This document shows, piece after piece, positions 23,404-49,506 of a stretch of 64,000 nucleotides of DNA. The DNA lies in NCBI RefSeq assembly GCF_000737595.1, contig NZ_CP006271.1, positions 620,001 to 684,000 of the forward strand, read 5' to 3'. The notes beneath the pieces are model-generated. The model was not told the DNA's origin. It did no database searches and saw nothing but the letters and a program-made list of their open reading frames with translations. Within the stretch, counting starts at the first letter, position 1. The number at the start of each line of letters is the position of its first letter. The position numbers and the translations under genes were made by a program. Source of the stretch: Synechococcus sp. KORDI-52. GTDB lineage: Bacteria > Cyanobacteriota > Cyanobacteriia > PCC-6307 > Cyanobiaceae.

Positions 23404-23543
23404 GGCGTTTCTGACTCCTGCACTGTGGGGGGGATTCCCTGTAAGCGCCATTCCCCTGAGCGTTCATTGGCATCGCAGCAGCCACTCCGTGAGAGCGACT
23501 TGTTCAAACAGCACCTCAGCTCAAGTTGGCATGCGGATGTGTT

Positions 23544-26374: not shown

Positions 26375-26830
26375 ATGGCCGAACGCACTTTTGTCGCCAT
26401 CAAGCCCGACGGCGTCCAGCGCGGCCTGGTGGGCGAGATCCTCGGTCGCTTTGAGCGCAAGGGCTTCAAGCTTGTGGGTCTGAAGCAGATCACCCCCAGC
26501 CGTGCGCTGGCTGAGGAGCACTACGGCGTCCACAAGGAGCGTCCTTTTTTCGCCGGTTTGGTTGATTTCATCACCTCTGGCCCAGTGGTGGCCATGGTGT
26601 GGGAAGGCGATGGCGTCATCGCCAGCGCCCGCAAACTGATCGGCGCTACCAAGCCCCTCGAGGCCGAGCCCGGCACCATTCGCGGCGATCTGGCCGTCAA
26701 CATCGGTCGCAATGTCATCCACGGTTCCGATGCTGCGGAAACGGCTGCCTTCGAGATCGGCCTGTGGTTTGAAGCGTCTGAACTGAACGACTGGTCTCCT
26801 TCTGATCAGGAGTGGCGCGTCGAGGGCTGA
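26375..26830 (+). CDS. ndk: Nucleoside-diphosphate kinase
   Basis: 151 residues, standard length. The start [22 protein letters not shown] is diagnostic. The catalytic His lies in [20 protein letters not shown], and [21 protein letters not shown] supplies nucleotide contacts. It equilibrates nucleoside tri- and diphosphates through a phospho-histidine intermediate. The open frame upstream of the ATG has no support as protein. A hairpin terminator follows 30 bp after the stop. Confidence 0.97.
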
Positions 26831-26889: not shown

Positions 26890-28232
26890 GTGAATGCTGA
26901 ATCGCTGCTGTTGTTGCAGGCCCTGGACGGGGCGGTTGATCAGGCATTCGCTGATGTCGAGCCCTGCAGCTTTGCCCCCGGGTCTTGCCTGGTGCGGGAA
27001 GGTGAGTCAGTCGATGGGTTGCTGCTGATCTCGCGTCGGGTGTGGTTCAGGCTCGATGGGCTGATCTGGTGGATTCCCCGGGGCCGCTGCTGGGTCCACC
27101 CTGTGTGATCGTCGATATCTCCTATCTGCTGGGCGGAGTGGCTCGGGCCAGTGTGATTGCCCTGGAGCCTGTGGATGCCCTGCGCTTGTCTCGCCAGGGC
27201 CTCGAGACCTTGATGGCGTGATCCGGGCCACGGGCAACAACTGTTTCGCGCTCTGGCGGCCATCAATGCCCAGCGCTTACTCCTCCAGACCCATTCCCAA
27301 ATGCGCGATGGCGTGGCAGGACACGGGGCGGCGTCGTTGATGCCCGAACCGCTGGCTGTAGCGGTGCAGCGGTTCAAGCAATGTGCGGCTGCGGTGGAGG
27401 TGGATCTCCGCCGCAGCACCCCTGATCCGGTGATGAGGAGGGATCTGACGGCGGCTTTCGACACCTTGGTGCGTCTCACCGGCAGACTGTTTCCGCCTCT
27501 GTCAGGCGAGACCAAGGCACCTGACAGCCCGGCCTTCAGGCATTGCGCCTCGAAATGTTGTCCTATGTGCTGACCCGTTCCGCCGAACGGATGTATCGCA
27601 AGCCGATGGGCTACGCGCGGGACCTCCTCACGACCGCCTAGATGTATGCCGATGAGCCATGTGGGGCTGGGGAGCTCGGCACGCTGCTGGACCGCTGCTT
27701 TCTCAACCAACCGGCGGCACAGGCGCTGCGCAACTTCGAGGGCTGTTCCGTGAGGAGTTGCAGCCGGCTCTCACCCTTACTGATCAGAGACCTCTACGGG
27801 TGACCAGCCTGGCCTGCGGCCCTGCCTCGGAGGTCTTCGACATCCTTCTGTAGGATCATCAGTAGCACTGGAGTACGTGCGCGAGCGGCTGGAGCGTGCA
27901 GGGCTTGCGTCGGTGGTGCGCCTGGAACGCAGCAACCGTCCTCATCTGTGCATTGGCCGCCAGAAGTTTGAGCTGGAACCCCAGCACTTGATCTATTCAA
28001 TCGGCTTGATTGACTATTTCGATGATCGGATCGTTACGCGCTTGCAGACCTGGATGCGGGGGTGTCTCGCGGGTGTGGGCGATCCATCCTGGGCAATTTT
28101 CACACCAGCAATCCCACGCGCGGATCGATGGATCACCTGCTCGATTGGCCACTGATTAACCGGGATGAGGGCGACATGGTGCGCCTGGCAGGGCTGCAGG
28201 CTTCGCTCCGGGCACAACGCAATGCCGCTTAG
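26890..28232 (+). pseudogene. Decayed cNMP-binding-domain/SAM-methyltransferase fusion
   Basis: Protein-like pieces follow one another in changing frames. First a cNMP-binding-like N-terminus (CSFAPGSCLVREGESVDGLLLISR), continuing in another frame as VIVDISYLLGGVARASVIALEP. Then a helical linker (FDTLVRLTGRLFPP), a SAM-binding motif (RVTSLACGPASEVFDIL), FELEPQHLIYSIGLIDYFDDRIV, and in a further frame ILGNFHTSNPTRGSMDHLLDWPLI. The order matches cyanobacterial methyltransferases related to 3-hydroxypalmitate methyl ester synthases. In-frame stops (near 27220 and 27640) and at least three frameshifts break it. It starts only 59 bp after ndk and shares bases with the ndk terminator, so it may once have been read through. 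Confidence 0.8.
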
Positions 28233-28578
28233 AGGGAGCCGGCGTCAATCTGTTTGCGGTATCAACGCATTGATTGGCTTCGATTGACAGATTATTTTCA
28301 ATTTTAACACACCTGAAGTCTGGCTTTGCTGCTTGATCATCTGCTCATGCGCACGTCCAATTGCTTTCGAGGCAAGTCTGAGTTGAGGCTGCCCATTTTT
28401 GACGACTGCCCTGCTGGACTAGATTGAGTCTGAAGGGATAGGTGAGTGGCTACTTCCCTTTGTAATCACGGGCTTTTACACCGTATGCGCTGGGTGTGAT
28501 GTGTTAAGAGAGGCTTGAAGGAAGCCTTTATGTGTGAATTAAGGAATTTCTTGAAGTGGAGATCTCTTTCTTTAAGAT
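28233..28578. other. Gene-poor gap at the left border of the RiPP cluster
   Basis: This 346-bp gap separates the pseudogene from the first Nif11-like gene. Base composition shifts from GC-rich to AT-rich here. A weak 6-bp hairpin at 28511-28527 is followed by TTTATG on the plus strand. No gene longer than about 26 codons is supported. Confidence 0.5.
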
Positions 28579-28965
28579 TTAAATTTCGTCATTTAGAAAT
28601 GCTTGTCGCTCAGCTGTGCTGACGTGCTCTCCACGATCATTCAGTAATTGATTGCATCCTGCAAGACCACAGCGCAATGGGGCAATCATGCATCGATGAA
28701 TGCCTAAGGCAAGTCGAGAAAGATCGTCTTGTTGTTGATTGTCACGGCTCCCTTCCACAAGTTTTGTATTCTCTGGTGCCAGGTCAAGTCTTGAAATGTT
28801 GTATCCCATATTTTTTGCAAGATCCCGGATGGAGTCTATGTAGGCAAAGTCGATTCCGCCGAGGCATCGTTCCGCTGCTTGTTCGCGAAGTTGCAGAAGC
28901 TTGTCTTGTAATCCCTTGTCCTCGCAAACGGCAGAAAGAAAAATGTCTAGCTGAGTAGAAGTCAT
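28579..28965 (-). CDS. Nif11-like domain protein
   Basis: 128 residues. The first 60 match the Nif11 leader-like domain: helix LDIFLSAVCEDKGLQDKLLQLRE, a short linker, and IRDLAKNMGYNIS. This domain occurs at the N-terminus of many cyanobacterial RiPP precursors. The remainder has three Cys (HRCMIAPLRCGLAGCNQLL) but no Gly-Gly or Gly-Ala processing site before it, so it may be a precursor without a classical cleavage motif or a leader-like accessory protein. It lies 21 bp downstream of a radical SAM gene on the same strand and is AT-rich like that gene. Confidence 0.75.
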   Translation of the reverse strand: MTSTQLDIFLSAVCEDKGLQDKLLQLREQAAERCLGGIDFAYIDSIRDLAKNMGYNISRLDLAPENTKLVEGSRDNQQQDDLSRLALGIHRCMIAPLRCGLAGCNQLLNDRGEHVSTAERQAFLNDEI

Positions 28966-28986
28966 AATGGTAATTGGTTTTAAGGC

Positions 28987-30159
28987 TTAGATAGAATGAT
29001 GACGAGTTGGCATTTTTCTGCCTGAGTAGAACGGGGGGTGGCCATGCTCACTGATCAGTTTTCTCTTGGCTGCCTGTATGTCTTCGGGAAGAAGGGGCAG
29101 AATATGTTTTTCCCACCGCGGCATCGTTAGGCATTTCATTGGGTCTGGACTCATCTGTGTGTCATAAAGACCGGCATGAGCCCTACATCCACCACCACAT
29201 AATGAAAAGTACTTGCACTGACGACAGTGACTTAGTGCACCTGAGCGGATTGAGTAGAAATCTACTTCTGATTCTACTTTGGCACAGGCCTGGCTGAGGT
29301 GGTCGTATTCTTCTGTATTAGCTAATGGTTTTGTCAGCAGAGGACATATTGTAAGCTCCCCTTTTGGATTGATATTTATTGTTCCCTTTCTGTAGTCACA
29401 GGGATGAGATACTTCTGTAAATTCATGCATGTCAAGAGCTGTTTTTTCATAGTTATGATGAACTCCTCCTATATCTAGACCTATGATTTGTCCGTCATTA
29501 AAGTGTCGCTCTAAGAGGTTTCGATAGGCCTTGAAAAGGTTGTCGTAATTTTGGATTGATTGCTGCTCTCCAATTTCAAGAGCATCTGGTGTATGCATGT
29601 GGGTGTTGATTTTCCATTCAAGCCTATTTTCTTTGACAAAATCGTACATTGCGTCTAGATGCTCAATATTGTGCTCGTTGACGACGCTGATAATTATTGT
29701 CCGAAGGTATTTCTTGGCTTTGATAGCGATGTCGGCTAATTTGTGATTAACGGCTCCCACTCTTACGGGGTCATGTCCCTTGATTCCATCAAGGCTTATG
29801 GCGATATAGCGTAATCCTGCATCTGCCAAATCTTGAATCATCTGCTCTCCCTTATTGCCCATAAGAAGAGAGCCATTGGTCACCAGACTGCTATAGCCTT
29901 TCTTGCCTGTGATGTATGAGATAATTTCTAGGACATCAGGATGCATTAGTGGTTCTCCACCAATAAGAATGTATCTTCTTACTCCCATTTCAGATGCTTG
30001 ATCGATCAGTTGTCTGGCTTTTTTTGTGGATAGATAAGTGCCATTCTTGCTGCTAATTTGTTCAGCACAGAAGCAGTATGAGCATTTGAAGTTACATTGA
30101 TTTGTGAGCTCAAGGCGAAGAATAGAATGTGTATTTTTGCTAATTGACGCTGTCTTCAT
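28987..30159 (-). CDS. Radical SAM/SPASM maturation enzyme
   Basis: 390 residues. The radical SAM cluster motif CNFKCSYC supplies Cys22, 26 and 29. IGGEPLMHPDVLEII and AISLDGIKGHDPVRVGA follow as the glycine-rich SAM contact and later strands. The C-terminal SPASM region has CPLLTKPL, CRQCKYFSLCGGGCRAH and a final Cys, enough to hold auxiliary 4Fe-4S clusters. Such enzymes install C-C, C-S or other crosslinks, or epimerise residues, in peptides. No separate leader-recognition domain is obvious. It is flanked by Nif11-like genes on both sides and lies in a proteusin-type RiPP cluster; the exact chemistry cannot be read from sequence. Confidence 0.88.
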   Translation of the reverse strand: MKTASISKNTHSILRLELTNQCNFKCSYCFCAEQISSKNGTYLSTKKARQLIDQASEMGVRRYILIGGEPLMHPDVLEIISYITGKKGYSSLVTNGSLLMGNKGEQMIQDLADAGLRYIAISLDGIKGHDPVRVGAVNHKLADIAIKAKKYLRTIIISVVNEHNIEHLDAMYDFVKENRLEWKINTHMHTPDALEIGEQQSIQNYDNLFKAYRNLLERHFNDGQIIGLDIGGVHHNYEKTALDMHEFTEVSHPCDYRKGTININPKGELTICPLLTKPLANTEEYDHLSQACAKVESEVDFYSIRSGALSHCRQCKYFSLCGGGCRAHAGLYDTQMSPDPMKCLTMPRWEKHILPLLPEDIQAAKRKLISEHGHPPFYSGRKMPTRHHSI

Positions 30160-30240
30160 TGCCCTTTGATCTTGCCTATCCTTAGTATGAGCTCATCTCT
30201 TAAAGTCCGCAGCAACCCAGGTTAAATTCTTTCTGAAGGT

Positions 30241-30468
30241 ATGTCTCTAACTGCTGTTATTGATTTTATGAGAGCAGTTAAAATTACCCCTCTTCTGGGT
30301 GATCAGGTTAAAACGGCACGTGAACGGGCCTCACAGCGTTGCCAGGGTGGGTTTGATGATGAGTATCTAGATCAGTTGGTCAAACTAGCAGAACAAGCTG
30401 GATATAAAATTTCAGTCAAAGAACTCAGGCAAGTACCTGGATTCTTGCCTGTGAATGACCCGAATTAA
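30241..30468 (+). CDS. Short Nif11-like protein
   Basis: 75 residues, on the opposite strand to the rest of the cluster. Almost the whole length is a Nif11-like domain (LTAVIDFMRAVKITPLLGDQVKTA, then LDQLVKLAEQAGYKISVKEL). Only about 12 residues follow, and there is no Gly-Gly motif or Cys-rich core, so it looks like a leader without a core. The N-terminus recalls the larger Nif11 protein of the cluster (ERASQRCQGGFDDEYLD against EQAAERCLGGIDFAYID), so the two share ancestry. It may be a recognition partner supplied in trans or a degenerate precursor. Its stop abuts the stop of the convergent radical SAM gene. Confidence 0.7.
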   Translation: MSLTAVIDFMRAVKITPLLGDQVKTARERASQRCQGGFDDEYLDQLVKLAEQAGYKISVKELRQVPGFLPVNDPN

Positions 30469-31902
30469 TTACCCATTGATGGTTATTAATTTGTCCCCTT
30501 GTGGTGTCTTTGGTGAATCATCAGAATAGTATGTGTCTTCCAAGGTAGATTGAATTAAGTCAGGTCTCCCGATTGCCTCCAGCAATAAAGAAGCTGTTAT
30601 CAGCCTTGTTCCGATGCAAAAGTCGTCATATTTATACTCTGAGCCCTTATGGGTATGCGTTACGTGGCACCCTCCAGCACAGGAGTACCGGCAAAAGCAG
30701 TCTTCACATTTTCCTTTTTTGGTGACAAGTTCACGTATTGACTCAACATTGGACTCTTTGATTGATACCACCCCATTGGACCGTATTTCACCTATCTTTA
30801 AATCCATGTCGTGGGCTTCCCAGTCATTTGGAGATAAATAGCATGCATTAAGAGACCCATCAGGGTGAACAACGATTGCATCATCTCCAACCAAGCATGA
30901 TGTTAATCGTGGTTCCCCTGGATTAATCGGAGTGTAGGCAAAGTCAACGCCAGTACCCCTAAGGTGTAGAAAAGTTTGATGCCAATTACGGGCAAAATCA
31001 ATTGGACTTGGAGGGTAAATTGACGCAAGTACTGTTAATGTGTTTTCAGTTAGCGGCTCAAATTTAATGCTTGATGGCCGCCATCTTTCTATCATATTAG
31101 AAGCTATTGATTTCATCTTATGGACTGTCTCTGATGTGATACATCCTCGAATATGCAGCTCTAGCTTACTCTTGGAGAAGTAGTCTGCGCTTTTGGCTAC
31201 TGCCTGATAGCTTCCATGATCTTTATTGATAGGTCTATGCAGGTCATGTTCGTCTTGTTCTCCATCAATGGATAGGATGATCTTATGAAAATTTTCTGAT
31301 ATCCACTCTCGCATAGATTCGGATAATACTCCATTCGTTGTGGCCATATAAAATGGCTGTATATTGTGCTTTAAACACTCTTTGTTTGAAAATTCAACGA
31401 TCTCTTTGATCAGCTCAAATGTTGTAAATGGCTCTCCACCAAAAAAGTGAATTTTTAATGGCTGATCTTTCTTGGTCTCCCGCTTACGTTGCGACCGCCT
31501 TTTGACCGTCCATTTGATAATCTCTTTTGCTCTTTGTATGTCCAGGCTATTTTGTGGAGAGGTTGGTCCATCAAAATGACAATAAGTGCATTGTAGGTTG
31601 CATCCTCTCGTTGTGACAAAGACTAAAAAGTCGTCATTGAGCTCTCCTTTTTTTTGCTTTGGTTTGAGGTGTGGTTCCTGGTGTATTAATTGATTGATAA
31701 TAGCTAGTTGGGGATCTTGTGTGTTGATTTTCCCCCCTTTTATTTCTTGTATATCCTCGTCTGTAAGAAGTGCATTAAAGTCATGAAGTGGTGCATGGAG
31801 TAGCCAGTTTTTTCCGACTGGTATTGCAAATACTTTGCTGGTCTTGAGTGCTTCTTCTTTTGCGGAGAAGTTTTGTTTGATTGATTGTAATGGTGTGGGC
31901 AT
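30469..31902 (-). CDS. Radical SAM/SPASM maturation enzyme with N-terminal extension
   Basis: 477 residues. About 95 residues precede the radical SAM core, whose motif CNLQCTYC gives Cys101, 105 and 108. FFGGEPFTTFELI and LSIDGEQDEHDLHRP are typical later elements. The SPASM domain shows CYLSPNDW, CEDCFCRYSCAGGCHV and a last Cys near DDFCIG. The layout matches RiPP-maturing SPASM enzymes. It differs clearly from the other SPASM enzyme of the cluster, so two distinct modifications are likely. It lies 59 bp after the PoyD-like epimerase gene on the same strand and shares its AT-rich composition. Confidence 0.88.
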   Translation of the reverse strand: MPTPLQSIKQNFSAKEEALKTSKVFAIPVGKNWLLHAPLHDFNALLTDEDIQEIKGGKINTQDPQLAIINQLIHQEPHLKPKQKKGELNDDFLVFVTTRGCNLQCTYCHFDGPTSPQNSLDIQRAKEIIKWTVKRRSQRKRETKKDQPLKIHFFGGEPFTTFELIKEIVEFSNKECLKHNIQPFYMATTNGVLSESMREWISENFHKIILSIDGEQDEHDLHRPINKDHGSYQAVAKSADYFSKSKLELHIRGCITSETVHKMKSIASNMIERWRPSSIKFEPLTENTLTVLASIYPPSPIDFARNWHQTFLHLRGTGVDFAYTPINPGEPRLTSCLVGDDAIVVHPDGSLNACYLSPNDWEAHDMDLKIGEIRSNGVVSIKESNVESIRELVTKKGKCEDCFCRYSCAGGCHVTHTHKGSEYKYDDFCIGTRLITASLLLEAIGRPDLIQSTLEDTYYSDDSPKTPQGDKLITING

Positions 31903-31961
31903 GGGTTCTATTTGAAGGTGCTAGTGAGAACAGTGGTTGGGTGTTTTGAAGTAATATCTAT

Positions 31962-33305
31962 CTATGCATATTGCAAAAGTGGTGGGTTGGGTAATTTCTC
32001 AAAAATCCCTTTCTCGTAAAGCGTGTTTGCTGCATGCAACACAAGTCCTGGGTTGATTTCGTTTGTCTTAGAGATTTCTGAGACTATTTCTGAAACTGAC
32101 AATGTTCCATTAATTCTTGATACGATCTCTTTTTCGATTTTGTCTTTTACAATTATGTTCGCGTATTGTGTTTTCAGGTTGAGCTGCCCTTCGTGATTGG
32201 TGATATAGATTTCTTCCCTTAGTGATAATATCTTTTCGATATCTAGGCTTTCGTTGAAGATTGTTTTCTCGCAATGTTCAAAGAATTCTTGGATTTGTTT
32301 AATGGGGTCATCTAGCTCTGTCTCAGCGTAAACGGCATAGCCTTGAGGCCATCTCTCAAAGTCTATGCATGGGCTAATTAACTTGATGTTTCTTTGCGAC
32401 AAGTTGATCAAAAATCCAGAGACACAGGCGATGGAGCCTAGTTGAGTATTGATTGATAAATCTTTCGCCCTACCAGCGCAGCTTTTTGTCTTCAGTGACT
32501 CAGGATTTTGCAGCACAAGGTCGATATCCTTGAGTTCTATGGCACTGAACTCTTGCATGATTATATGAAGTTCTTTGAGGCTATTAATTGAGAGACGGTC
32601 CCAGGTGCCCCCCATTGTTTCTCTCAATTCTATAAATTGCCGGGTGCGATCTATGTTTTTCACCCACGCGGCAGTTGTTGTTTGGGGTGGAATTCCAAAT
32701 TCTCTATTGAATGACTGAATATATTTTTCGTAATCGGGATTATCAAAGGGATCTGTGGCCCAATACAAAAAACCTGTGGCTCCGGCTTCCCCTATATAGT
32801 TTTTAAGACTTTGTATGATTGAATTGAAGATTGTTCCGTTGTTATTCCTCTCATATCGTGCGACTGATTTCAGTTTGGGAGCTGAAAGGCCGCAGTATTG
32901 GCATCCTATAGAGCAACCTTCGGATAGTTCAATCGCGAATGGAAGGAGTCTTTTCCTTCTGGCAAACCCATCGGCGGCTTGTCCGGCATAACGATTGGCT
33001 TGTCTGTTTCGCCAGTGGCGAAACGAAGAGGGTAAGTCTGTGTCTAGCTTCTGTAGCCAATGGTAAGCATTTTGCCGTCGCTTTGTGCACCAATTTGTGT
33101 AATTTATAGATGTATCTGTTCGTCTGTCAAAAAGTCTGCTTTGGGATTCTTGCCAGAGGTCTTGGATCTCTGAAGGTACGAGTTGAATTCCATAGCGACT
33201 GATGATGTTATTCGGGCTTTGGACTGCTTTCTCTCTGAATTCCGGATCGGCGGTGAAAAGCTCCAAAAACCTTTTGACTTCCCAGGGCTGCGTTTTAGAT
33301 GTCAT
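31962..33305 (-). CDS. PoyD-like radical SAM peptide epimerase
   Basis: 447 residues. The N-terminal helical segment (KRFLELFTADPEFREKAVQSP, then RYGIQLVP) is typical of the PoyD/OspD family of RiPP maturation amino-acid epimerases. The radical SAM motif is CSIGCQYC (Cys131, 135, 138) in ELSEGCSIGCQYCGLSA, and the family lacks a classical SPASM domain. These enzymes convert L- to D-residues at several positions of a proteusin core by H-atom abstraction at the alpha carbon. The gene is 64 bp downstream of the precursor gene on the same strand. The C-terminal part (about 360-447) resembles a small winged-helix-like module and may help bind the leader. Confidence 0.85.
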   Translation of the reverse strand: MTSKTQPWEVKRFLELFTADPEFREKAVQSPNNIISRYGIQLVPSEIQDLWQESQSRLFDRRTDTSINYTNWCTKRRQNAYHWLQKLDTDLPSSFRHWRNRQANRYAGQAADGFARRKRLLPFAIELSEGCSIGCQYCGLSAPKLKSVARYERNNNGTIFNSIIQSLKNYIGEAGATGFLYWATDPFDNPDYEKYIQSFNREFGIPPQTTTAAWVKNIDRTRQFIELRETMGGTWDRLSINSLKELHIIMQEFSAIELKDIDLVLQNPESLKTKSCAGRAKDLSINTQLGSIACVSGFLINLSQRNIKLISPCIDFERWPQGYAVYAETELDDPIKQIQEFFEHCEKTIFNESLDIEKILSLREEIYITNHEGQLNLKTQYANIIVKDKIEKEIVSRINGTLSVSEIVSEISKTNEINPGLVLHAANTLYEKGIFEKLPNPPLLQYA

Positions 33306-33369
33306 GTGCCTGCTTGAAAAAAGGTGTGTGTGATTGAAGCTTTTCTCCGCTTCCCCTTAGCCCGAAAAA

Positions 33370-33765
33370 TTACCAGCAGCAGTTAAGTGCCCTTGTGTTC
33401 TGATTGTTGACACTCATCCAGTTGCCAACTTTGAAGTGTCTGGTATTGACAGCTTTGTTCAGAGAAAGTTTTGCAAACATTTGCCCCCCGACTACTGCTG
33501 TCAGGTCTTCCGTCCCTAGAGGCTCGTCGATGTCCTCTACGGACGGAGGTTCTGTTGGAAGTGGAAAGTGCACCTCTTTTTCTCCGATAAAGTAAGGCAA
33601 ACCGCTTTCTCCTTCTTTGATGACAACCTCCACGTCATCTCTAATGATGTAACCCTCCTCGGTCAGCACCTTCCGAGCATTACTTTTTAAGTTTTCTTTG
33701 TATTGTGGCTCTTCCCAGCATTTTGAGATGATCCTTCCGAGAATCAAAAGGTCTTCGTTAGTCAT
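33370..33765 (-). CDS. Proteusin-type RiPP precursor with NHLP leader
   Basis: 131 residues. The leader (1-94) is nitrile-hydratase-like: helical start DLLILGRIISKCWEEPQYKE, NARKVLTEEGY, then strand VEVVIKEGESGLPYFI. It ends in AVVGG at 90-94, a double-Gly site for the C39 peptidase encoded upstream. The 37-residue core begins QMFAKLSLNK and ends NTRALNCCW. It contains three Asn-rich patches, one Phe-Lys-Val, one Asn-Trp-Met and a terminal Cys-Cys-Trp. No LanM or YcaO gene is nearby, so lanthionine or azoline formation is not expected. D-residues from the PoyD-like enzyme and radical SAM crosslinks are. One precursor only was found. Confidence 0.85.
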   Translation of the reverse strand: MTNEDLLILGRIISKCWEEPQYKENLKSNARKVLTEEGYIIRDDVEVVIKEGESGLPYFIGEKEVHFPLPTEPPSVEDIDEPLGTEDLTAVVGGQMFAKLSLNKAVNTRHFKVGNWMSVNNQNTRALNCCW

Positions 33766-33783
33766 TGCTTTAGGCCTCGTGGT

Positions 33784-33993
33784 CTATTGGCAGTCTTCAT
33801 TTTGGAGATAAATACAGCTGCAGGTCGCCCTCTTTATTTTTTGCTCTGCATTCTTTGTATTTTTGTTTAGCTCACGTATTTCGTCTTGTGCTGAGAAACA
33901 TAGTTTCTGCTTCTCTCGTCTTGTATCAGGAAATGTTTTTAAATTTTTCGCATTTTCTTCGGCAACTGATGTCTGCGGCTTAGCCCGTAATGT
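33784..33993 (-). other. Start-less open frame with Cys-rich end
   Basis: In the gap between the C39 transporter gene and the precursor gene one minus frame is open for 69 codons. It has no ATG, GTG or TTG. Its end, TCSCIYLQNEDCQ, is Cys-rich and polar. It could be a relic of a second precursor or chance openness in AT-rich DNA. The same gap must hold the precursor promoter if that gene is transcribed separately. Confidence 0.2.
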
Positions 33994-36127
33994 TCAGTAA
34001 TTGCATGTATGGGCCTGATGGTTCCCCTGCGAGTTGTTTGTGGCTTCCTTGTTGAATTACTTTGCCTTGATCCATCACCAATATGAGATCGGCGTCACGG
34101 ATGGTGCTCAAGCGGTGGGCCACAATGATTTGGGTGCAGCCTCGCCTGGCGAGGTTCGCGATCAGTTTGCGTTCTGTTTCGGCATCCAGGGCAGATGTGG
34201 CCTCATCCATGATCAGAATGCTGGGATTGCTCACTAGGGCTCGGGCTATTTCCAGGCGCTGGCGTTGCCCGCCGGAGAGGTTGCGGCCGCCTTCGCTGAG
34301 TTGGGTATCGAGGCCGTCCGGCAGTCCCCGCACCACCTCCAGCACCTCCGCATCACGGCAGGCATCTTGCAGCGTTGTGTCGCTGATGGTCCGGTTCCAG
34401 AGGCTGAGGTTATCGCGCACGCTGCAGCCAAACAGCTGAATCTCTTGTTGGACCATCGCCAGCGAGGCCACCGCCACGGAGCGCGGAAGCTCCAGCAGGG
34501 TGTGGCCATCGAATCGGATAGTGCCACCCGTGGGTTGATGGAGGCCGGCCAGCAATTTGGCCAAAGTGCTTTTGCCGCTCCCGCTGCCCCCCACCAGGGC
34601 AACGCGCATGCCGGGTTGAATGGTCAGCGACAGCCCGTCGATCAATGGTTCCTGAATCGCGGTGAAGCCAAAGCGCAGATCGTCAATTTCGATCTTGCCG
34701 CTCATGCGTGTTGGTGCTCTGTTGGCATTGGTTCTGCTCGGGTGATCGAGCAGAGGATCGCGGGGTTGCTCGAGAACGTCTTCCAGGCGCAGAACGCCTG
34801 CTTCAAAACCGGGTAGTTGCTGTATGAACTCGATCAAGCTTTCGATTTGACCTTTGAGGCTGAAGGCAATGGTTTGGGCGGCTAGCAACATGCCCAGGGT
34901 GAGATCGCCTCGGATGACCAGCAGGAATCCCAGCAGAAGAACGGCCACTTCGTTGAAGGTGGTAAGTCCGTTGGGGATCAGGCGCAGGCTGGCATTGCGC
35001 AACTGCAGGGCTTGCAGGGTGTTGAGCAAACGGCTCTGATAGCCGGCAAAGCGGCGGAACACATCGTGTTCCAGGGCGGCGGCCTTGATTGTTTCGATAT
35101 CGCGCATGGCGCCCACCACCACCGCGCCGCTTTTAGCCTCATCCTTCTGCAGGGCAATGCTGGCATCTTTCTGGGTGCGCAAGTTGCGCTGCACCACAAG
35201 CGCATTGATGGCGGTGGTGGTGAGGATCAATATCCCTAGCCATGGGCTGTAGAGGAAGGTGAGGATCAGGTAGAAGACCAAAAGCACCAGCCCTGTCGCC
35301 ATGGGGATCAGCTTGCCGCCGATGAATTCGGCAATAGTGGTGTTGATGTCCATCCGACTAGCGATGTCGGACGCATGACGTTGGCTGTAGAAGCGTTCGG
35401 GTAGGGCGAGGATCTGATGCTCAAAGCCGATGGCGAAGCGGCGGGTCAGCCTTTTCTCCAGGCTGCGGGTTCCCACCAGCTGCAGATGCTGCAGCACCAC
35501 TTGCAGGCCGATGGTCAGGGCCATGGACCAAAGCATGGGCTTGAGCCAGTGGTTCATGGCATTGCCGATCACTTCGTCCAGGTAGATCTGGGCGAACACC
35601 GGCATCACCAGCTGGGGAAGGATCAACAGCAGGCCGGCGATCAGGATGAACAGCGCTCCCATCGGCTCGCTGCTCAATCGACGCCACACGATGGGCCACG
35701 GCGACGGTGCACGGCCACCCCGTTGGAACTCCGGCCCTGGTTCCATCGTCAGCACGATGCCGGTGTAACTGCGATCGAACTCCTCACGGCTCACCGTGCG
35801 TGGCCCCAGGGCGGGGTCGTTGAGGGCTACCCGATCACCGCGAAAGCCCTCGAACACCAGGAAGTGATTGAACTCCCAGAACAGAATCGCCGGGAGGTTG
35901 ATCTTCTCCAGCGCGGCGATGCCCTTTTTGAATCCTTTGGCGTCGAGGCCCAGGCTGCGGGCCGCGAGGATCAGATTGGCGGCGTCACTGCCATCGCGGG
36001 AGACGCCGCAGAGTTCTCGCAGTTGGGCGAGGGGGACATAGCGCCCGTAATGCTGCAGAACGATGCTCAAGGAGGCGGCACCGCATTCGGTGTTCTCCAT
36101 CTGCAGCACGGTGGGCGTATTCACCAT
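33980..36127 (-). CDS. NHLP-family C39 peptidase/ABC exporter
   Basis: 715 residues. An N-terminal C39 cysteine peptidase (about 1-130) has the catalytic set Q9, C15 (ENTECGAASLS), H88 (EFNHFLVFEG) and D104 (LNDPALG). A six-helix ABC membrane domain follows (about 160-440), then an ATPase with Walker A GGSGSGKST, signature LSGGQRQR and Walker B ILIMDEATSALD. It should cut the precursor after Gly-Gly and export the core. Family-length and complete. It overlaps the HlyD gene stop by 1 nt (TGATG) and is GC-rich, unlike the downstream precursor and radical SAM genes. Confidence 0.93.
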   Translation of the reverse strand: MVNTPTVLQMENTECGAASLSIVLQHYGRYVPLAQLRELCGVSRDGSDAANLILAARSLGLDAKGFKKGIAALEKINLPAILFWEFNHFLVFEGFRGDRVALNDPALGPRTVSREEFDRSYTGIVLTMEPGPEFQRGGRAPSPWPIVWRRLSSEPMGALFILIAGLLLILPQLVMPVFAQIYLDEVIGNAMNHWLKPMLWSMALTIGLQVVLQHLQLVGTRSLEKRLTRRFAIGFEHQILALPERFYSQRHASDIASRMDINTTIAEFIGGKLIPMATGLVLLVFYLILTFLYSPWLGILILTTTAINALVVQRNLRTQKDASIALQKDEAKSGAVVVGAMRDIETIKAAALEHDVFRRFAGYQSRLLNTLQALQLRNASLRLIPNGLTTFNEVAVLLLGFLLVIRGDLTLGMLLAAQTIAFSLKGQIESLIEFIQQLPGFEAGVLRLEDVLEQPRDPLLDHPSRTNANRAPTRMSGKIEIDDLRFGFTAIQEPLIDGLSLTIQPGMRVALVGGSGSGKSTLAKLLAGLHQPTGGTIRFDGHTLLELPRSVAVASLAMVQQEIQLFGCSVRDNLSLWNRTISDTTLQDACRDAEVLEVVRGLPDGLDTQLSEGGRNLSGGQRQRLEIARALVSNPSILIMDEATSALDAETERKLIANLARRGCTQIIVAHRLSTIRDADLILVMDQGKVIQQGSHKQLAGEPSGPYMQLLNITG

Positions 36128-37248
36128 CAGAAGATTCCTGTCAGATCCCGCAGAATTGGAATCACGTAGCTGATTGGTCTGCGTTCTTCCACCAGCACGC
36201 GCACGTCCGTGGGGGTACCGGCACTCAGCTGCAGCGCCGGGCCCGGGCCACCACCCCAGTCGTAACCGCTGATGGTGTTCGGGTCGGCCTTTAGGGAGGT
36301 TTTGACTTCGATCAGGGGGCCCTTCGGCTCGGTGCGCACCGCTTCCAGCAGTGATTCGAGGCCGAGCCGTTTCGTCAGGGCGGTGTCATCCACCGGTAGT
36401 TGGCGAATCGACAGCACCACACCGTCGATGCCGCCATGGCGTTGCTGTTTGGTGCTCGTGGGGCTGATGCGCACCCGCAGGCCCACGTTAAGGCGTTTGC
36501 CATCCCCTGCCGGGAAGAAGGCCAGGCTCTCCAGGGGCTCTTGGCCGTTTTGAGCATCCAGGGTGAACACCGGGCTGCCGGCTTGGAGCACTTCCCCGCG
36601 GTGCACATTGCGGTCGACCACGCAACCATCGATTGGGGCGCGGATCTGAGCGATGCGCTTGATCTCCTCATCACGGGCGTTGATGCGCGCCCGTTGCTGC
36701 TGGATTTGCTGCTCCCGTTGGCCATCCCGCGCTTCGAGGGAATCCACCAGGCTGCTCAGCTCTTTCTCGCGCTGGCTCAGTTGATCAAGGGAGATGGCCC
36801 CAGACTTCACCAGGTTGCGGATCCGGGCGATTTCCGCCTTTTGCTGACGGATGCGGATGGCACCGAGCCGATCTTCCTCTTGGTCTTGATCGATCAGTTG
36901 CTGTAGCTGCAGCCTCGCTTCCTGTTTGCTCACCTCCTGGTTTACCGGGTCGATCCGAGCCATCAATTGGCCGCGTTTCACGCAGTCACCAATGTCGTTG
37001 TTCAGCTCCAGCAGGCGCCCGGCAGTTTCGCTCTGCACCACCGTGAGGCTGTTGGTGCGAATCAGCACGCCCTTGCCGCTGATGCGCACAGGCAGCCGGC
37101 CAAACACCGACCAGACGGCGATGGTGATGCAGAACCCTCCAAGGGATAGGAGCAGTAGCCATTGCCCGGGCCGCAGGAGCCGCAGGGGTTGATCCAGTTG
37201 TTCCGGACTGGAGAGGGCATCCAGTGCGTTCTTGCGAAACAGGCTCAT
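36127..37248 (-). CDS. HlyD-family membrane fusion protein of the RiPP exporter
   Basis: 373 residues. One N-terminal membrane helix (WLLLLSLGGFCITIAVWSVFG near residue 30) is followed by a lipoyl-like half (LNNDIGDCVKRGQLMARID), a coiled-coil hairpin (about 100-195; QLIDQDQEEDRLGAIRIRQQ) and the second lipoyl half (IRAPIDGCVVDRNVHRGEVL). It matches the NHLM-type bacteriocin secretion adaptor, which links ABC exporters across the periplasm. Both ends overlap neighbouring transporter genes (1 and 4 nt), so the three export genes are translationally coupled. Confidence 0.9.
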   Translation of the reverse strand: MSLFRKNALDALSSPEQLDQPLRLLRPGQWLLLLSLGGFCITIAVWSVFGRLPVRISGKGVLIRTNSLTVVQSETAGRLLELNNDIGDCVKRGQLMARIDPVNQEVSKQEARLQLQQLIDQDQEEDRLGAIRIRQQKAEIARIRNLVKSGAISLDQLSQREKELSSLVDSLEARDGQREQQIQQQRARINARDEEIKRIAQIRAPIDGCVVDRNVHRGEVLQAGSPVFTLDAQNGQEPLESLAFFPAGDGKRLNVGLRVRISPTSTKQQRHGGIDGVVLSIRQLPVDDTALTKRLGLESLLEAVRTEPKGPLIEVKTSLKADPNTISGYDWGGGPGPALQLSAGTPTDVRVLVEERRPISYVIPILRDLTGIF

Positions 37249-39980
37249 GTGATCTGCCGTTCCATCATTCGGAAGAACAGCCCCTGGTTCTGCATCAGGG
37301 TCTTGCAGGTTCCCTGCTCCTGCACCTGCCCGTGGTCGAGCACCACAATGTGATCGGCTTGGCGGATGGTGCTGAGGCGATGGGCGATCACGATCCGGGT
37401 GATGGCCAGGGATTGCAGGCTTTCGGTGACGATTGCTTGGGTGCGGTTGTCGAGGGCACTGGTGGCTTCATCAAAGATCAGGATGCGGGGACGGCGCACC
37501 AGGGCTCGGGCGATCGCGACCCGTTGACGCTGCCCGCCGGACAAGGTGCCACCTCCCTCCGGAACCATCGTCTGAAGCCCCATGGGCATGGCCTGGATCT
37601 CATCGGCCAGGCCTGCCAGTTCCGCTGCATGCCAGGCCTCCTGCTCTGTGATCATGGCTCCTCCGGCTATCGCTTCCATCAAGGTGCCTGTGAACAGGCT
37701 GTTGGTCTGCAGCACCGTGCCGATCTGGCGGCGCACGCTGTCCAGACGCAGGCCGTTCAGGGGTTGACCATCGAAGCGGATTGCGCCGTCCTCTGGGCTG
37801 GCAAAGCCCAGCAGCAGGCGCACCAAGGTGGACTTCCCGGATCCGGAGGGACCGACGATCGCCACCTGCTCCCCTGCACGCGCTTCAAGGCTGACCCCGT
37901 CAAGCACCAGGGGGAGCTCGGGGGCATAGCGGTAGCTGATGCGATCCAGCTGGATGTGGCCGTTGAGTGGGGCCGCCTCGTCTTTGCGTTCGGCCGTTTC
38001 GGTGGCTGTTTCCAGGATCGGCTTGGCCCGCTCATAGATCACCGGCATGTCGAGAGCGCCGATCAACAGTCCGGCGAAACCGGCTGCAGCGCCGATGAAG
38101 GTGCCAAAGGCGGAGAAGAAGCCCAGCAGTTGCCCCACATTGGGCGCCCTGAGGCTGGGGCTGCTGGCCGCTTCGGCGATCAGGCGCGTGATCACGACGT
38201 ACACCAGCAAGGTGCCCAGATTGGGCATCACCGCTCTTAGCAGGGCGGCAGTTGCCTCTTTGGCATCGAGGGCGTTTTCCAGCGCAACGATCTTTTGAAA
38301 CTCTTCGCCCCACCAACGGGCGGCGCCAGTTTCCGCACCAGCGAGGCGCAGTTTGGCTACCGAACCGATCAACTCCAGATTGCGGCTTTGGGCCTGCCCT
38401 TCGGCTTCTTCCTGGTGGCGTTGCAGCGGGCGGGCTTGCCAGCCGATAAGAGCGGTGGGCACCAGGATCAGGGCTGCCACCACCAGGGCAAGGGCGGTGA
38501 GTTTCACGCTGATGCGCAGCATGAACAGGATGTAGAGGCTGGTGAGCACAACCCTCAACAGTCCGCCCTCCAGCAGTTGCTGAATTTCACCGCGCAGTTC
38601 GTCCAGGGCACCGAAGCGCAGTTGCAGATCGCCGACATTGCGTTGGCGAAAGAAGTCTGTGGGGAGCCGCAGCAGGCGGTGCATGCCTGCCAGCTGTGAG
38701 CGGGCAGCTCCCCGTTGCTGGCTGAGCTGCAGGGCTCGGCTCTGCACCCACTCGAAGGACACCCGTGTGATGCCGGCGGCCATCAGGATCAGGCTGATCT
38801 GCAGCAACAGGCCCAGGTCGCGATCCGGCAGGGCTTGGTTGGTGATCACCGTATTGAAGGTGGGCGTCAGCAATGACAGCAGCGTGGAGAGCAGCATCAC
38901 GCCCACACCGAGCCGGAATCCTCCACTCAGCACGCCGAGGCAGGTGCCTGTCAGCAGTCCAGTGATACCCATCCCGAAGATCCAACGGGCTGCTCCCACT
39001 TCACGGCCGATGGCCAGCAGGAAACCGATCACGACGCCCAGCAGCAGCCCGCCGATTACAAAGCGTGTGGTTTGGCGGGGTTGGCCGTAGGCAAACCGCA
39101 GTAGGCCAATGGTGGTGAGGTCTTGGGGGCGGAAGGCGGGGCTGATGCTCACCATCCGTGGTGACAGGTTGTTCAGCCAGGCCGAACACTGCTCCAGGGG
39201 TTCGGGTTCGGCCATGCGGCTCGGCTGCCAGGCTCGATACCCCTTGCGGGTGGATTGGAGCACCACCACGTCGCTGTCTTTGGCTTCGCTTCCGTTGAGA
39301 AAACCGATCAGATCGCCACAGTCCTGCTGGAGATCCTCCGGATGAATCAGCACATCCCGGCAGAACAGATCGGTGCGGTCCAGCAGCTGTTGCAGCCGTT
39401 GGCGTTGATCCTGGGTCTCCAGGCGGGGTGCCATGGGTAGGAGGGGCCCTTGATCTCCGCTGACCAACTGCAGCGCCCGCAGCACAGGATCGACGTAGTG
39501 GTCCTGTGGGTGGGCTGTCGGGTCACCCGCCTCTGCGGCGCTATCGCCGTTGCTCTGTTCCATGGTCTGGAACAGTTGCCATTCACTGGCTGCATTCAGG
39601 GGTTGGTGGGCGTTCACCACCGCTCGGTGATGCTGCTCAGCCTTGGCATGCAGCTGGGCGAGTTTGTGGATGAGCTGGGTACTGCTCGGGGCGGCTGATG
39701 CGGGGATGCCCAGGTCTTGGCTGATTTGGGCATCCAGCCAGATCAGCCCCTCACCGCACTCTCCTCCTGGCACGTGCTCCAGCCGCGTCGTCTGGATGGC
39801 TCGCAGGCTCAGTCGAATCGGTGCATCCTCCGAGGCAGAGAGCCCTGGATAGAGATGGGTGCGATCCAGGCGCAGCACCCCGAAGCTGTGGTTGCCGCTG
39901 ACCTCCAACAGCAGGTCGCCGTCGACGACCTGAAACGGCGTCGTGGGCCAGTCGTGTTCGCTGCCGGCCTCCCAGTTCAT
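37245..39980 (-). CDS. NHLM-family ABC exporter (permease/ATPase) without C39
   Basis: About 911 residues. A 320-residue N-terminal region without the C39 catalytic triad is followed by an ABC membrane domain and an ATPase (GPSGSGKSTLVRLL, LSGGQRQRVAIARAL, ILIFDEATSALDNRTQ). This is the second transporter usual in NHLP/proteusin clusters, thought to pair with the C39 transporter. The ATG at 39980 overlaps the stop of the upstream cNMP-domain gene by 4 nt; an ATG 42 nt further upstream would overlap more. The role of its long N-domain is unknown. Confidence 0.9.
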   Translation of the reverse strand: MNWEAGSEHDWPTTPFQVVDGDLLLEVSGNHSFGVLRLDRTHLYPGLSASEDAPIRLSLRAIQTTRLEHVPGGECGEGLIWLDAQISQDLGIPASAAPSSTQLIHKLAQLHAKAEQHHRAVVNAHQPLNAASEWQLFQTMEQSNGDSAAEAGDPTAHPQDHYVDPVLRALQLVSGDQGPLLPMAPRLETQDQRQRLQQLLDRTDLFCRDVLIHPEDLQQDCGDLIGFLNGSEAKDSDVVVLQSTRKGYRAWQPSRMAEPEPLEQCSAWLNNLSPRMVSISPAFRPQDLTTIGLLRFAYGQPRQTTRFVIGGLLLGVVIGFLLAIGREVGAARWIFGMGITGLLTGTCLGVLSGGFRLGVGVMLLSTLLSLLTPTFNTVITNQALPDRDLGLLLQISLILMAAGITRVSFEWVQSRALQLSQQRGAARSQLAGMHRLLRLPTDFFRQRNVGDLQLRFGALDELRGEIQQLLEGGLLRVVLTSLYILFMLRISVKLTALALVVAALILVPTALIGWQARPLQRHQEEAEGQAQSRNLELIGSVAKLRLAGAETGAARWWGEEFQKIVALENALDAKEATAALLRAVMPNLGTLLVYVVITRLIAEAASSPSLRAPNVGQLLGFFSAFGTFIGAAAGFAGLLIGALDMPVIYERAKPILETATETAERKDEAAPLNGHIQLDRISYRYAPELPLVLDGVSLEARAGEQVAIVGPSGSGKSTLVRLLLGFASPEDGAIRFDGQPLNGLRLDSVRRQIGTVLQTNSLFTGTLMEAIAGGAMITEQEAWHAAELAGLADEIQAMPMGLQTMVPEGGGTLSGGQRQRVAIARALVRRPRILIFDEATSALDNRTQAIVTESLQSLAITRIVIAHRLSTIRQADHIVVLDHGQVQEQGTCKTLMQNQGLFFRMMERQIT

Positions 39981-40990
39981 GCTGAAACGGCCTCGCCCGT
40001 TTGAAAGTGTCGGCAGAGCCAATCAAAGTGGCGCGCGCCCCTGCTGATGGCCGCTAGCTCGCCGAGATCAAGTCGATCGATGGCATCCAATTCGGCCTGC
40101 TGGCTGGCCGCGGCGCGTTGATGACTCAATAGTTGATCCCTGCTGCGTTGGGACAACATGCAGGCCAGGCCTCGGTAAAAGCGAGACGCCAACTTGGGAT
40201 CCTGCGCCAAAGCGGCTTGGAGCTGCTGGATGTCGATGGCGAGCACATCCATGCCTGCAGCGGTGTGGACGCTGGCCGCGGCGCCGTCTTGCTTCCTCTG
40301 CAGCAGACTCATCTCGCCCAGCAACTCGCCGCGTCTGGAGCTGCCCACCATCTGTGTCGTTCCGCTGAGGTTGAGCAGGATCTCCGCTTCACCGCTGAGC
40401 ACCAGATACAGAGCTGGGACAGGCTCGCCCTGATGCAGCAGCACAGTGTCAGGCAAGAGCTTCTCTACCTGCCCGAGTAGCGCCAGGCGATGCACATCCT
40501 GTTCGTGGAGCTGGGCAAACAACACCAACACTTTGCGCAGGGCTTCCACCGGGGCAGTTGCGTTGGTCAGCCGATGAACCCAGGCGTTCTGCTCTTGAAT
40601 CTGAACGGCCAGTTTCTGAGCGATCAGCTGATTCAGCTCGGCGGCCAGGGCCGGAGAGTCCTCCACGAAGCGCTCCAGCTGTCGCACCGGGAGCTCCAGC
40701 ACGGTGCTGTCCTCAGGAGCGGTGACGGTGGCCACGGCGGGACGTTGCTCCAGCCAGCTCATTTCCCCCACCAGACTGCCGGGGCTCAGGGTCGCCAGCT
40801 GGTCTTGAAGCTCTTGGCGGTTGGTGGTGGTGACCGTGAGGCTCCCGTTGAGGAGAACGAACAAGCATTCACTGGCTTTACCTTCCCGGATCAGCGTGCT
40901 GCCGCCTGCCAAGGTTCTGGAGCTGCCAGCGCTCTTGATCCACTCCAGCAGTGCTGTACTGGCATGGTCAAAAAGGCTGAATGACGGCAT
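39977..40990 (-). CDS. Double cyclic-nucleotide-binding-domain protein
   Basis: 337 residues with two cNMP-binding beta-rolls (about 15-135 and 165-290) and no helix-turn-helix. The first cassette reads GEMSWLEQRPAVATV, keeping the Arg but with Pro in place of the usual Ser. The second reads GEMSLLQRKQDGAAASV and lacks the Arg, so nucleotide binding there is doubtful. It heads the export operon, coupled to the next transporter gene by a 4-nt overlap. cNMP-binding domains accompany NHLM exporters in several cyanobacterial clusters. It may gate transport or regulate the cluster; I cannot tell which. Confidence 0.82.
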   Translation of the reverse strand: MPSFSLFDHASTALLEWIKSAGSSRTLAGGSTLIREGKASECLFVLLNGSLTVTTTNRQELQDQLATLSPGSLVGEMSWLEQRPAVATVTAPEDSTVLELPVRQLERFVEDSPALAAELNQLIAQKLAVQIQEQNAWVHRLTNATAPVEALRKVLVLFAQLHEQDVHRLALLGQVEKLLPDTVLLHQGEPVPALYLVLSGEAEILLNLSGTTQMVGSSRRGELLGEMSLLQRKQDGAAASVHTAAGMDVLAIDIQQLQAALAQDPKLASRFYRGLACMLSQRSRDQLLSHQRAAASQQAELDAIDRLDLGELAAISRGARHFDWLCRHFQTGEAVSA

Positions 40991-41055: not shown

Positions 41056-42165
41056 TTACAGCCACCGATCCCAGCTGAAGCTGGGCAGCAAGGCCGCGAG
41101 ATCGCTTCGGGGTGTGCCTCCACTGGCCAAATCCGCGATCAGTTCTGAAGTGGCACTGGCCATCAGCACGCCGTTGCGGTGATGCCCACAGGCCAGCCAG
41201 AGCCCTTGGATTGCGCAGGCGCCCAGGAGAGGACCCTCGTCCGGGGTGCAGGGTCGGAAGCCCCACCAGCGCTCCATCGGTGGCCAGTGGATGGCCTCTG
41301 GCAACAAGGCGGCGATGCCCTGTTTCAGGGTGGTCTGACCCTGGGGCGTGAGCCCTTCGCTGAACCCGGCATCGCGTTCGGAGGTGGCTCCTACCACCAC
41401 GAGGCCATCTTCCCGTGGTACCAGATAGGTGCCTGGCCCGAAGATCACCCGCCGTAGAGCCCCCCGGGGCGTTTGCAGCGAAAGCATCTGGCCTTTCACG
41501 GGAAACACCGGCAGTTCCGGCAGGAGTTGGCCACTCCATGCACCGCTGCAGAGCACGGCTGTGCTGCACATCAGGCTTGTCTCATGCCCTTCGGAGTCGC
41601 AGGTGCGGACCCCTTTCAGGCGGCTGTTTTGGTCGCGCAGCAGGTCCAGCACTTCTACCCCTTCCTGGAAGTGCACCCCCCGGTCCACACAGGCGCTTTC
41701 CAGGGCGCGCATCAACTGGCGGCGGTTGTCGATCTGTCCGTCCTGGGCGAAGAGCAGTCCCGCCGTCCAGGACGGTGCCAGGCCCGGCAGCTCCTGCAGC
41801 AGTTGCGCGCGGTTGAGGGGTTCTCCGAAGGCAGCCGTGGGGTACTGATCCCGTTCGTCTTCGCTGCGGAACGGCACCACGATGCCGGTGGTGCGCAGGC
41901 CGCAGGGCAGGCCACTGTCGGCTTCGATTTGCGCCACCCAACTGGAGACCCGGCCGAGACTTAACTGTCCGAGCTGCAGTAACGGCCCACTTAGCCCTTC
42001 CGCATGGGGTGCCAGCATTCCGGCCGCTACAAAGCCTGCTGCTTCACTGCGGCGGCGGCTGATCACCTGTACATTTTCGCCGCGACGGGCCAGCTGGTGG
42101 GCCACGGCCAGGCCCATCAAGCCACCCCCCAGCACAAGCGTTGCTGGATGGTCTGAAGGGGTCAT
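41056..42165 (-). CDS. thiO: Glycine oxidase ThiO-like FAD enzyme
   Basis: 369 residues. The Rossmann FAD site LVLGGGLMGLAVAHQLARRG opens the protein, followed by RSEAAGFVAAGMLAPHAE, the segment typical of glycine oxidases. The C-terminal part has VPREDGLVVVGATSERDAGF and FRPCTPDEGPLLG, ending in the FAD-contact GLWLACGHHRNGVL. ThiO oxidises glycine to the imine used for the thiazole of thiamine. In several cyanobacteria thiO is fused to thiG; here it stands alone. It lies 65 bp beyond the start of the RiPP export operon and 7 bp after the cNMP-domain gene upstream. Confidence 0.85.
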   Translation of the reverse strand: MTPSDHPATLVLGGGLMGLAVAHQLARRGENVQVISRRRSEAAGFVAAGMLAPHAEGLSGPLLQLGQLSLGRVSSWVAQIEADSGLPCGLRTTGIVVPFRSEDERDQYPTAAFGEPLNRAQLLQELPGLAPSWTAGLLFAQDGQIDNRRQLMRALESACVDRGVHFQEGVEVLDLLRDQNSRLKGVRTCDSEGHETSLMCSTAVLCSGAWSGQLLPELPVFPVKGQMLSLQTPRGALRRVIFGPGTYLVPREDGLVVVGATSERDAGFSEGLTPQGQTTLKQGIAALLPEAIHWPPMERWWGFRPCTPDEGPLLGACAIQGLWLACGHHRNGVLMASATSELIADLASGGTPRSDLAALLPSFSWDRWL

Positions 42166-47182: not shown

Positions 47183-47232
47183 GGTTCCGGAGCAGGATGC
47201 AACCAGTGTCTCGCGGCGGATCAGCGGTGGCG

Positions 47233-49449: not shown

Positions 49450-49473
49450 ATGACCGACTCATATCATTCGGAT

Positions 49474-49506
49474 ACGGAACATAAGTCAAGATGACTTATG
49501 TTCCGT
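49474..49506. repeat. Perfect 15-bp inverted repeat at the sulfotransferase stop
   Basis: Two exact 15-nt arms (49474-49488 and 49492-49506) around a 3-nt loop overlap the stop codon of the sulfotransferase gene and precede the DruA-like gene. A run of A follows the right arm on the plus strand, which is not the T-run of a rightward terminator. It could be an operator or a hairpin that limits readthrough. Confidence 0.65.

Follow-up and report, generated by a model that had tools for sequence, protein, structure and literature searches.

The locus described here, found in a window of 64,000 nucleotides from the genome of Synechococcus sp. KORDI-52, makes visible the junctions of a kind of change by which picocyanobacteria may replace their peptide weapons. 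Exporters of the same kind occupy the same chromosomal place in different strains, either empty, with what appears to be a microcin C-like set or with a proteusin cassette. The crossover point looks to be in the terminal 3' part of the gene for the C39 peptidase-bearing ATPase (ABC1). The reading that we favor, and consider likely, is that a low-GC six-gene proteusin cassette follows a C39 exporter of four genes and fills a slot which in relatives is empty or differently occupied. Its predicted product is a secreted 37-residue peptide with D-residues and radical-SAM modifications, which would inhibit competing picocyanobacteria.

Gene content and conservation of the locus

The source genome is a single contig of 2,572,069 bases. 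ORF calls and profile searches recovered, in place, all ten genes that the sequence-only reading had reported between positions 28579 and 40990 of the window. Listed from the thiO side to the ndk side, these genes and their surroundings are:

41056..42165, minus strand: thiO, left border of the thiO-ndk site, from the thiO-ndk comparison among relatives
39977..40990, minus strand: two-domain cNMP-binding, export-associated protein (TIGR03896, 327.7 bits, cut-off 161.05; PF00027 in two stretches)
37245..40022, minus strand: NHLM ABC2, an ABC permease/ATPase without peptidase domain (TIGR03797, 619.6 bits, under the cut-off of 709.4)
36127..37248, minus strand: HlyD-type adaptor (TIGR03794, 246.1 bits, cut-off 156.2)
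33980..36127, minus strand: NHLM ABC1, a C39 peptidase/permease/ATPase (TIGR03796, 1019.9 bits, cut-off 853.3)
28289..34029, no strand: insert relative to the payload-free G616 locus (blastn arms stop at 34030 and restart at 28288)
33370..33765, minus strand: precursor, NHLP-type leader and core (TIGR03793, E 6.2e-8, 32.4 bits, under the cut-off of 50.9)
31962..33305, minus strand: PoyD-family radical SAM epimerase (TIGR04517, 358.8 bits, cut-off 325)
30469..31902, minus strand: SPASM1, a radical SAM/SPASM peptide maturase (best NCBIfam match PapB, NF047865, 125.9 bits, cut-off 340)
30241..30468, plus strand: Nif11b, a 75-aa Nif11-domain protein (PF07862, 30.6 bits, cut-off 23.8)
28987..30159, minus strand: SPASM2, a SPASM-type radical SAM enzyme (PF04055; radical SAM domain from about residue 13)
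28579..28965, minus strand: Nif11a, a 128-aa Nif11-domain protein (PF07862, 21.7 bits, just under the cut-off of 23.8)
26890..28232, plus strand: broken cNMP-binding/methyltransferase gene that flanks the insert on the right (matches the intact G021 gene of 477 aa in pieces, in several frames)
26378..26830, plus strand: ndk, right border of the thiO-ndk site (adjoins thiO without insert in 7 of 10 relatives)

The NHLM/group V exporter set (C39-ABC, HlyD, peptidase-less ABC and two-domain cNMP protein) is complete, with three of its four proteins above curated cut-offs. The earlier claim of a complete C39/HlyD/ABC export set thus held, whereas its treatment of exporter and cassette as one unit did not. 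The GC content of the cassette is 0.426 against 0.619 for the exporter; the corresponding values are 0.422 and 0.584 in Synechococcus sp. UW105, and 0.430 and 0.577 in strain G029. Judged from the sequence, the cassette was inserted behind an export locus that is distinct from it, and the two are units with different histories.

UW105 carries the same ten genes in the same order; this search covered the collected loci, of which four were listed. Between KORDI-52 and UW105, dN/dS is 0.06 for the precursor, 0.11 for PoyD, 0.10 for SPASM1, 0.17 for Nif11b, 0.07 for SPASM2 and 0.13 for Nif11a. The six cassette genes are under purifying selection and, since they are also collinear in UW105, the cluster is not a product of chance. 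Prochlorosins, which are likewise picocyanobacterial RiPPs with double-glycine leaders, are made by LanM from Nif11 leaders (PMC10783134). TIGR03897 (LanM) has no match in the KORDI-52 genome, in line with the absence noted earlier, so the cluster lacks the synthetase that marks prochlorosins and class II lanthipeptides. Promoter and terminator scans gave counts close to those of shuffled controls (10 against 10.8 and 8 against 5.5, respectively), and operon borders were therefore not drawn from them.

Precursor and maturation proteins

The precursor comprises a leader of 94 aa, with VVGG at positions 91 to 94, and a core of 37 residues, QMFAKLSLNKAVNTRHFKVGNWMSVNNQNTRALNCCW, with a monoisotopic mass of 4323.12 when unmodified. 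The TIGR03793 match extends over residues 9 to 94 and is below the cut-off; the proposed NHLP-leader precursor with a 37-residue core is upheld with that reservation. As in proteusins, a Gly-Gly-type cleavage site is combined with an adjoining C39 exporter. The AF2 model of the precursor, built on an alignment of only 4 sequences, is too poor (43.2) for the fold to be judged from it. Among about 5.8 billion proteins, three clusters of homologues were found, at 92, 85 and 73% identity; an NCCW C-terminal end and the motif VGNWM are common to their cores and to those of KORDI-52 and UW105. The UW105 core is identical to that of P0001. Four of these five cores, including that of KORDI-52, contain no Asp or Glu, and the fifth contains one. 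The two Cys at the C-terminus of the core are possible thioether donors. Members of the precursor cluster and of the SPASM2 cluster occur together in one source, which has a contig of 3,066,221 bases.

The epimerase, a common although not universal element of proteusin clusters, scores above the TIGR04517 cut-off and keeps its cysteines, which confirms the PoyD-like enzyme of the sequence-only reading. The radical SAM cysteines (Cys131, Cys135 and Cys138) and Cys294 are kept in all 21 aligned sequences (20 of 22 loci and our own), and no further cysteine is invariant. The single strictly conserved Cys372 of PoyD is its likely hydrogen donor (PMC8326336), and Cys294 may be its counterpart. TIGR04517 occurs in 1 of 34 genomes of the genus, which is KORDI-52 itself, and in 1 of 59 relatives. 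A comparison with PDB sequences gave no match for the epimerase. Carriage by a phage or a plasmid was also considered. The epimerase is without match in the phage collection, and the precursor alignment has no relative in viral contigs. The 48 plasmid records with epimerase homologues all lie below 60% identity (at most 35.7% among the 20 listed), and nearly all are from rhizobia. Both vehicles were rejected.

The claim of two distinct SPASM enzymes stood as to the domain evidence. SPASM1 has a Pfam SPASM match (24.5, cut-off 21.5) and an N-terminal extension of about 90 residues, and SPASM2, which has no Pfam SPASM match, retains the SPASM-type cysteines in its alignment. At the family level, no NCBIfam cut-off was reached among the best 25 of 92 matches for SPASM1 and the best 25 of 59 for SPASM2, and SPASM1 missed that of the PapB equivalog. 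Cysteines are invariant or nearly so across 28 SPASM1 sequences (27 of 38 and our own) and across 24 SPASM2 sequences (our own and 23 of the 120 listed homologues, from 316 found). A homologue of SPASM1 (E <= 1e-40) is present in 2 of 386 genomes sampled from the phylum, KORDI-52 and UW105 (G399). The AF2 model of SPASM2 has a pLDDT of 88.1, and its nearest solved fold is SuiB, with a TM-score of 0.64. Its fold matches are SPASM, MoaA and viperin-type relatives, too distant for a chemistry to be assigned from them.

The best family match of SPASM1 suggested PapB-type Cys-Asp/Glu thioether crosslinks. PapB, which makes a ranthipeptide, uses Asp/Glu acceptors near Cys (PMC9413430). Such a crosslink is unlikely in the product because the KORDI-52 core contains neither Asp nor Glu, and, with these acceptors absent from four of the five cores, any thioethers that form would have to involve other residues. 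In this PoyD pathway, two radical SAM enzymes that are so far uncharacterised are combined with a core without the acceptor residues of the nearest crosslinking family.

Two Nif11-like proteins had also been reported. Nif11b exceeds the PF07862 cut-off and Nif11a falls just under it; the strand of Nif11b had to be corrected to plus. Nif11b thus lies antisense to SPASM1, tail to tail with it, and is antisense in UW105 too. Nif11a has a conserved three-Cys C-terminal part, and the whole protein is 81% identical in UW105. In the test for Nif11-leader precursors (TIGR03798), Nif11a reached 19.8 of 32.3 bits and Nif11b gave no match; a Gly-Gly site before a C-terminal core is absent from both sequences. 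UW105 has 29 Nif11-leader matches against 8 in KORDI-52 (G000), so the same cassette lives with very different loads of Nif11 peptides.

The slot between thiO and ndk

The locus sits between thiO and ndk, which are neighbors at about 15 to 115 bp in 7 of the 10 relatives with both genes in the fetched stretch (L089-L098). At this site G021 (L097) and G007 (L098) have very large repetitive secreted-type proteins and a translocator-like gene, and G009 (L094) has an adenylate-cyclase-like gene as insert. An ABC1 homologue (E <= 1e-200) was found in 24 of 400 genomes of the family. In nine of these, thiO and/or ndk stands beside the export locus: both genes in KORDI-52, G616, UW105, G029, G192 and G308, and one only in G028, G019 and G523. 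The remaining 15 loci have neither gene within the fetched stretch, some stretches being short.

The G616 locus, from another genus, shows the slot without payload. Besides thiO and the four export genes it contains ndk and an intact cNMP/methyltransferase gene, which is encoded on the opposite strand and lies less than 20 bp from the ABC1 stop. KORDI-52 and G616 share 92.7% DNA identity in a left arm of 8103 bp that stops at window position 34030, and 89.3% over 1962 bp in the right arm from 28288; between the blastn arms lie 5.74 kb here and 50 bp in G616. The dS values of this pair are 0.24 for thiO, 0.27 for the cNMP protein, 0.12 for ABC2, 0.23 for HlyD and 0.42 for ABC1, against 1.47 for gatB and 1.20 for speA in the backbone; ndk is intermediate (0.54). 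The export locus is therefore of far more recent common origin than the surrounding chromosome. G523 was considered as a second empty slot, with no gene between ABC1 and ndk, and was not counted because its ABC1 reads with two in-frame stops.

A different payload occupies the slot in G029. UW105 and G029 are 89.0% identical over 1342 bp (thiO), 92.7% over 6467 bp ending at the ABC1 end, and 93.8% over 1941 bp from the cNMP/methyltransferase gene through ndk. Between the ABC1 end and the cNMP/methyltransferase gene, where UW105 has the proteusin cassette, the two show no similarity. The G029 payload encodes a methyltransferase, a PLP-dependent decarboxylase, a GNAT acetyltransferase, two 56-aa peptides ending in Asn and a ThiF-family enzyme, which we take to be the set that microcin C-like clusters contain. 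The 56-aa peptide has no NCBIfam match; by eye, it shows a double-glycine-type motif, LSNEELSDVAAG, comparable to EDLTAVVGG of the KORDI-52 precursor. The two peptide genes (L054:13862-14032 and 14245-14415) differ in DNA and encode identical peptides. The export-associated cNMP protein of G029 (L054:4224-4684) was matched only from residue 183, in two pieces; the rest of the exporter is intact. G029 is probably Synechococcus CC9605. For CC9605, a table lists a genome of 2.51 Mb with one group V cluster (PMC3140520), and a review states that this strain inhibits two other Synechococcus strains and that a microcin C-like molecule was suggested as the cause (PMC5793135).

For the UW105-G029 pair, dS is 0.18 for ABC2, 0.13 for HlyD, 0.28 for ABC1, 0.43 for thiO and 0.06 for ndk, against 1.45 for speA and 0.76 for gatB. 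In a published table, average nucleotide identities between UW105 and 11 further strains are 77.5-78.7%; G029 was not identified among those strains. Since backbone genes contradict the kinships of both KORDI-52 with G616 and UW105 with G029, the locus has likely moved between lineages. Relatives hold nothing or a different peptide pathway in the slot, which makes it likely that entire pathways were exchanged behind a single pump.

The junction appears to lie in the 3' end of ABC1. Third-position identity between the UW105 and G029 genes is 82-95% in codons 1 to 440 and 71-80% in codons 441 to 640, then falls to 52 and 45%. Between KORDI-52 and G616, nucleotide identity is 83-94% up to codon 696 and 47% in codons 697 to 715. 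KORDI-52 and UW105, which share the payload, have their highest third-position identity, 74%, in codons 697 to 715, a stretch of only 19 codons. The last ABC1 codons thus appear to change with the payload. Beyond the cassette, beside the cNMP/methyltransferase gene, UW105 retains a decayed copy of an ABC1 3' end, in an arm that is collinear with G616 from inside ABC1 onward (79.7% over 6320 bp). No such remnant was found in the KORDI-52 genome, and the scar was seen in UW105 only. The scar tail shares 35 of 52 residues with the present ABC1 tail of UW105, 31 with that of G029 and 39 with that of G019; G019, not G029, is the best match of the six tails compared, which did not include G616. The simplest reading of these sequences is that an incoming payload brought an ABC1 tail with it, recombined close to the end of ABC1 and left the older tail behind.

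Downstream ORFs, at most 11 per locus, were viewed for 18 of the 24 exporter loci; G022, G506, G357 and G673 are cut by contig ends. Of the 24 exporters, 2 are followed by the proteusin cassette. A double-glycine peptide of 72 aa is encoded downstream of ABC1 in G626. G508 (L152), G482 (L153) and G673 (L154) have opposite-strand, Gly-rich double-glycine proteins at about 1.5 kb or less from ABC1. Against the CCRG-2 model (cut-off 24), G626, G508 and G673 scored 18.4, 21.5 and 14.6 bits. Two small ORFs that look similar by eye lie on the opposite strand in G188 (L155), no more than about 1.5 kb from ABC1; one was scanned and gave no CCRG-2 match. In G192, G308, G019, G329, G610 and G563 the next gene is adenylate-cyclase-like, with 24-32% identity to window positions 21499-23451. 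Among the downstream ORFs viewed, no payload was recognised behind any of the remaining exporters.

Proposed pathway, alternatives and known systems

From the protein families, PoyD would epimerise core residues to give D-residues, SPASM1 would modify or crosslink the core, and SPASM2 would perhaps modify the core or Nif11a. The C39 domain would then cut after VVGG, and ABC1, ABC2 and HlyD would export the peptide. The microcin C-like set of CC9605, the strain that G029 appears to be, offers an analogy by which the product may be an allelochemical. Payloads may have entered or been replaced through homologous recombination, with the ABC1 3' end as one arm. A wider proposal, which we hold to be about as probable as its opposite, is that the exporter acts as a socket: homologous recombination at the 3' end of the ATPase gene would let picocyanobacteria trade entire, chemically unrelated RiPP pathways (proteusin, microcin C-like, simple double-glycine peptides or none) behind one C39 exporter. 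With each payload that comes in, the exporter would therefore gain a different tail, which may adapt the pump to that payload, and the socket as a whole would also be handed from genus to genus in an arms race of peptides. Whether peptides of unrelated chemistry leave through one pump, and whether the C-terminal tail of the pump fits it to its payload, can now be tested directly.

Alternatives concern both the product and the history of the slot. The cNMP/methyltransferase gene next to the cassette is broken in KORDI-52 and in UW105, as it might be if the cassette itself were decaying and made nothing; with all six frames open, the catalytic cysteines kept and dN/dS at 0.06-0.17, we regard decay as highly improbable. 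G029 and G616 have this flanking gene unbroken, and G021 has an intact version of 477 aa. It is possible, although we lean against it, that the insert holds two RiPP modules, with precursor, PoyD and SPASM1 making one peptide and SPASM2 acting on the three-Cys C-terminal part of Nif11a. SPASM2 and Nif11a are adjacent and co-directional, 21 bp apart, the Cys-bearing part of Nif11a is nearly identical in UW105, and a nif11-class maturase family is among the SPASM2 matches, far under its cut-off (66.4 of 725). Against this division stand the lack of a Gly-Gly site before a C-terminal core in Nif11a and the co-occurrence of all genes with the NHLP precursor in both genomes. A role of the product as a signal, or in an intracellular or metal-related function, rather than in the inhibition of rivals, is similarly doubtful. 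No immunity gene was recognised, and the activity of most proteusins is largely unknown according to a review (PMC8326336), which would suit such a role; the C39 exporter and the slot shared with a microcin C-like set do not, and changeable payloads fit antagonism better than a conserved role.

As to history, exchange would not be needed if an ancestral locus had been vertically inherited and lost in most lineages, and if the ABC1 tail were simply fast-evolving. The patchy exporter (24 of 400 genomes) and the diversity of tails in all six ABC1 proteins compared agree with this account. However, dS at the locus is several times below that of speA or gatB in two different genome pairs, about 93% identity is found on both sides of unrelated payloads, and UW105 carries the scar, so that we give vertical inheritance little credence.

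Proteusins, NHLM exporters and bacteriocin genes that change beside an exporter are known kinds. The pneumococcal blp locus has one exporter with a changeable bacteriocin region adjoining; small bacteriocin and immunity genes change there, whereas whole modification pathways change here. An NHLP-type precursor with a PoyD-family epimerase in a cyanobacterium is shared with the PlpD, OspD and AvpD clusters (PMC8326336). In distinction from those clusters as generally described, the present one has two uncharacterised SPASM enzymes, two Nif11 proteins and a picocyanobacterial host, and its core is unrelated to any other protein found apart from the three homologues. The C39-ABC, peptidase-less ABC, HlyD and two-CAP_ED proteins are those of the NHLM export system (Haft 2010, PMC2887384) and of group V clusters (Wang 2011, PMC3140520). 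Mix-and-match of modification and export systems was already suggested in 2010 at the family level (PMC2887384); families are compared in those works, whereas the present comparison concerns exchange with its junctions at one locus. The microcin C-like cluster of CC9605 (Paz-Yepes 2013, cited through PMC5793135) has its likeness in G029, behind the same kind of exporter and in the same place, and is unrelated in chemistry to the cassette (ThiF-family enzyme, decarboxylase, methyltransferase, GNAT, 56-aa peptides).

No description of the cluster was found in the open part of the literature that was searched. In passages of PMC10783134, on RiPPs of marine Synechococcus, proteusins come up twice and UW105 three times, each time in another context; the cluster may be listed in the figures or supplementary tables of that work. 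As far as the searches reach, with subscription papers and preprints largely outside, two things are new: this gene set in picocyanobacteria, and junction-level evidence that entire RiPP pathways of unrelated chemistry were exchanged behind exporters of one kind. The description of a proteusin-type cluster of unusual composition, with its catalytic cysteines intact, is borne out.

The window contains a second low-GC stretch (41-49%) at 48586-57331, after an argJ-like gene at 47197-48435. It includes recombinase-like ORFs at 51527-52174 and 53197-54828 and surface- or sulfotransferase-like ORFs, all named from sequence alone, and looks like a genomic island.
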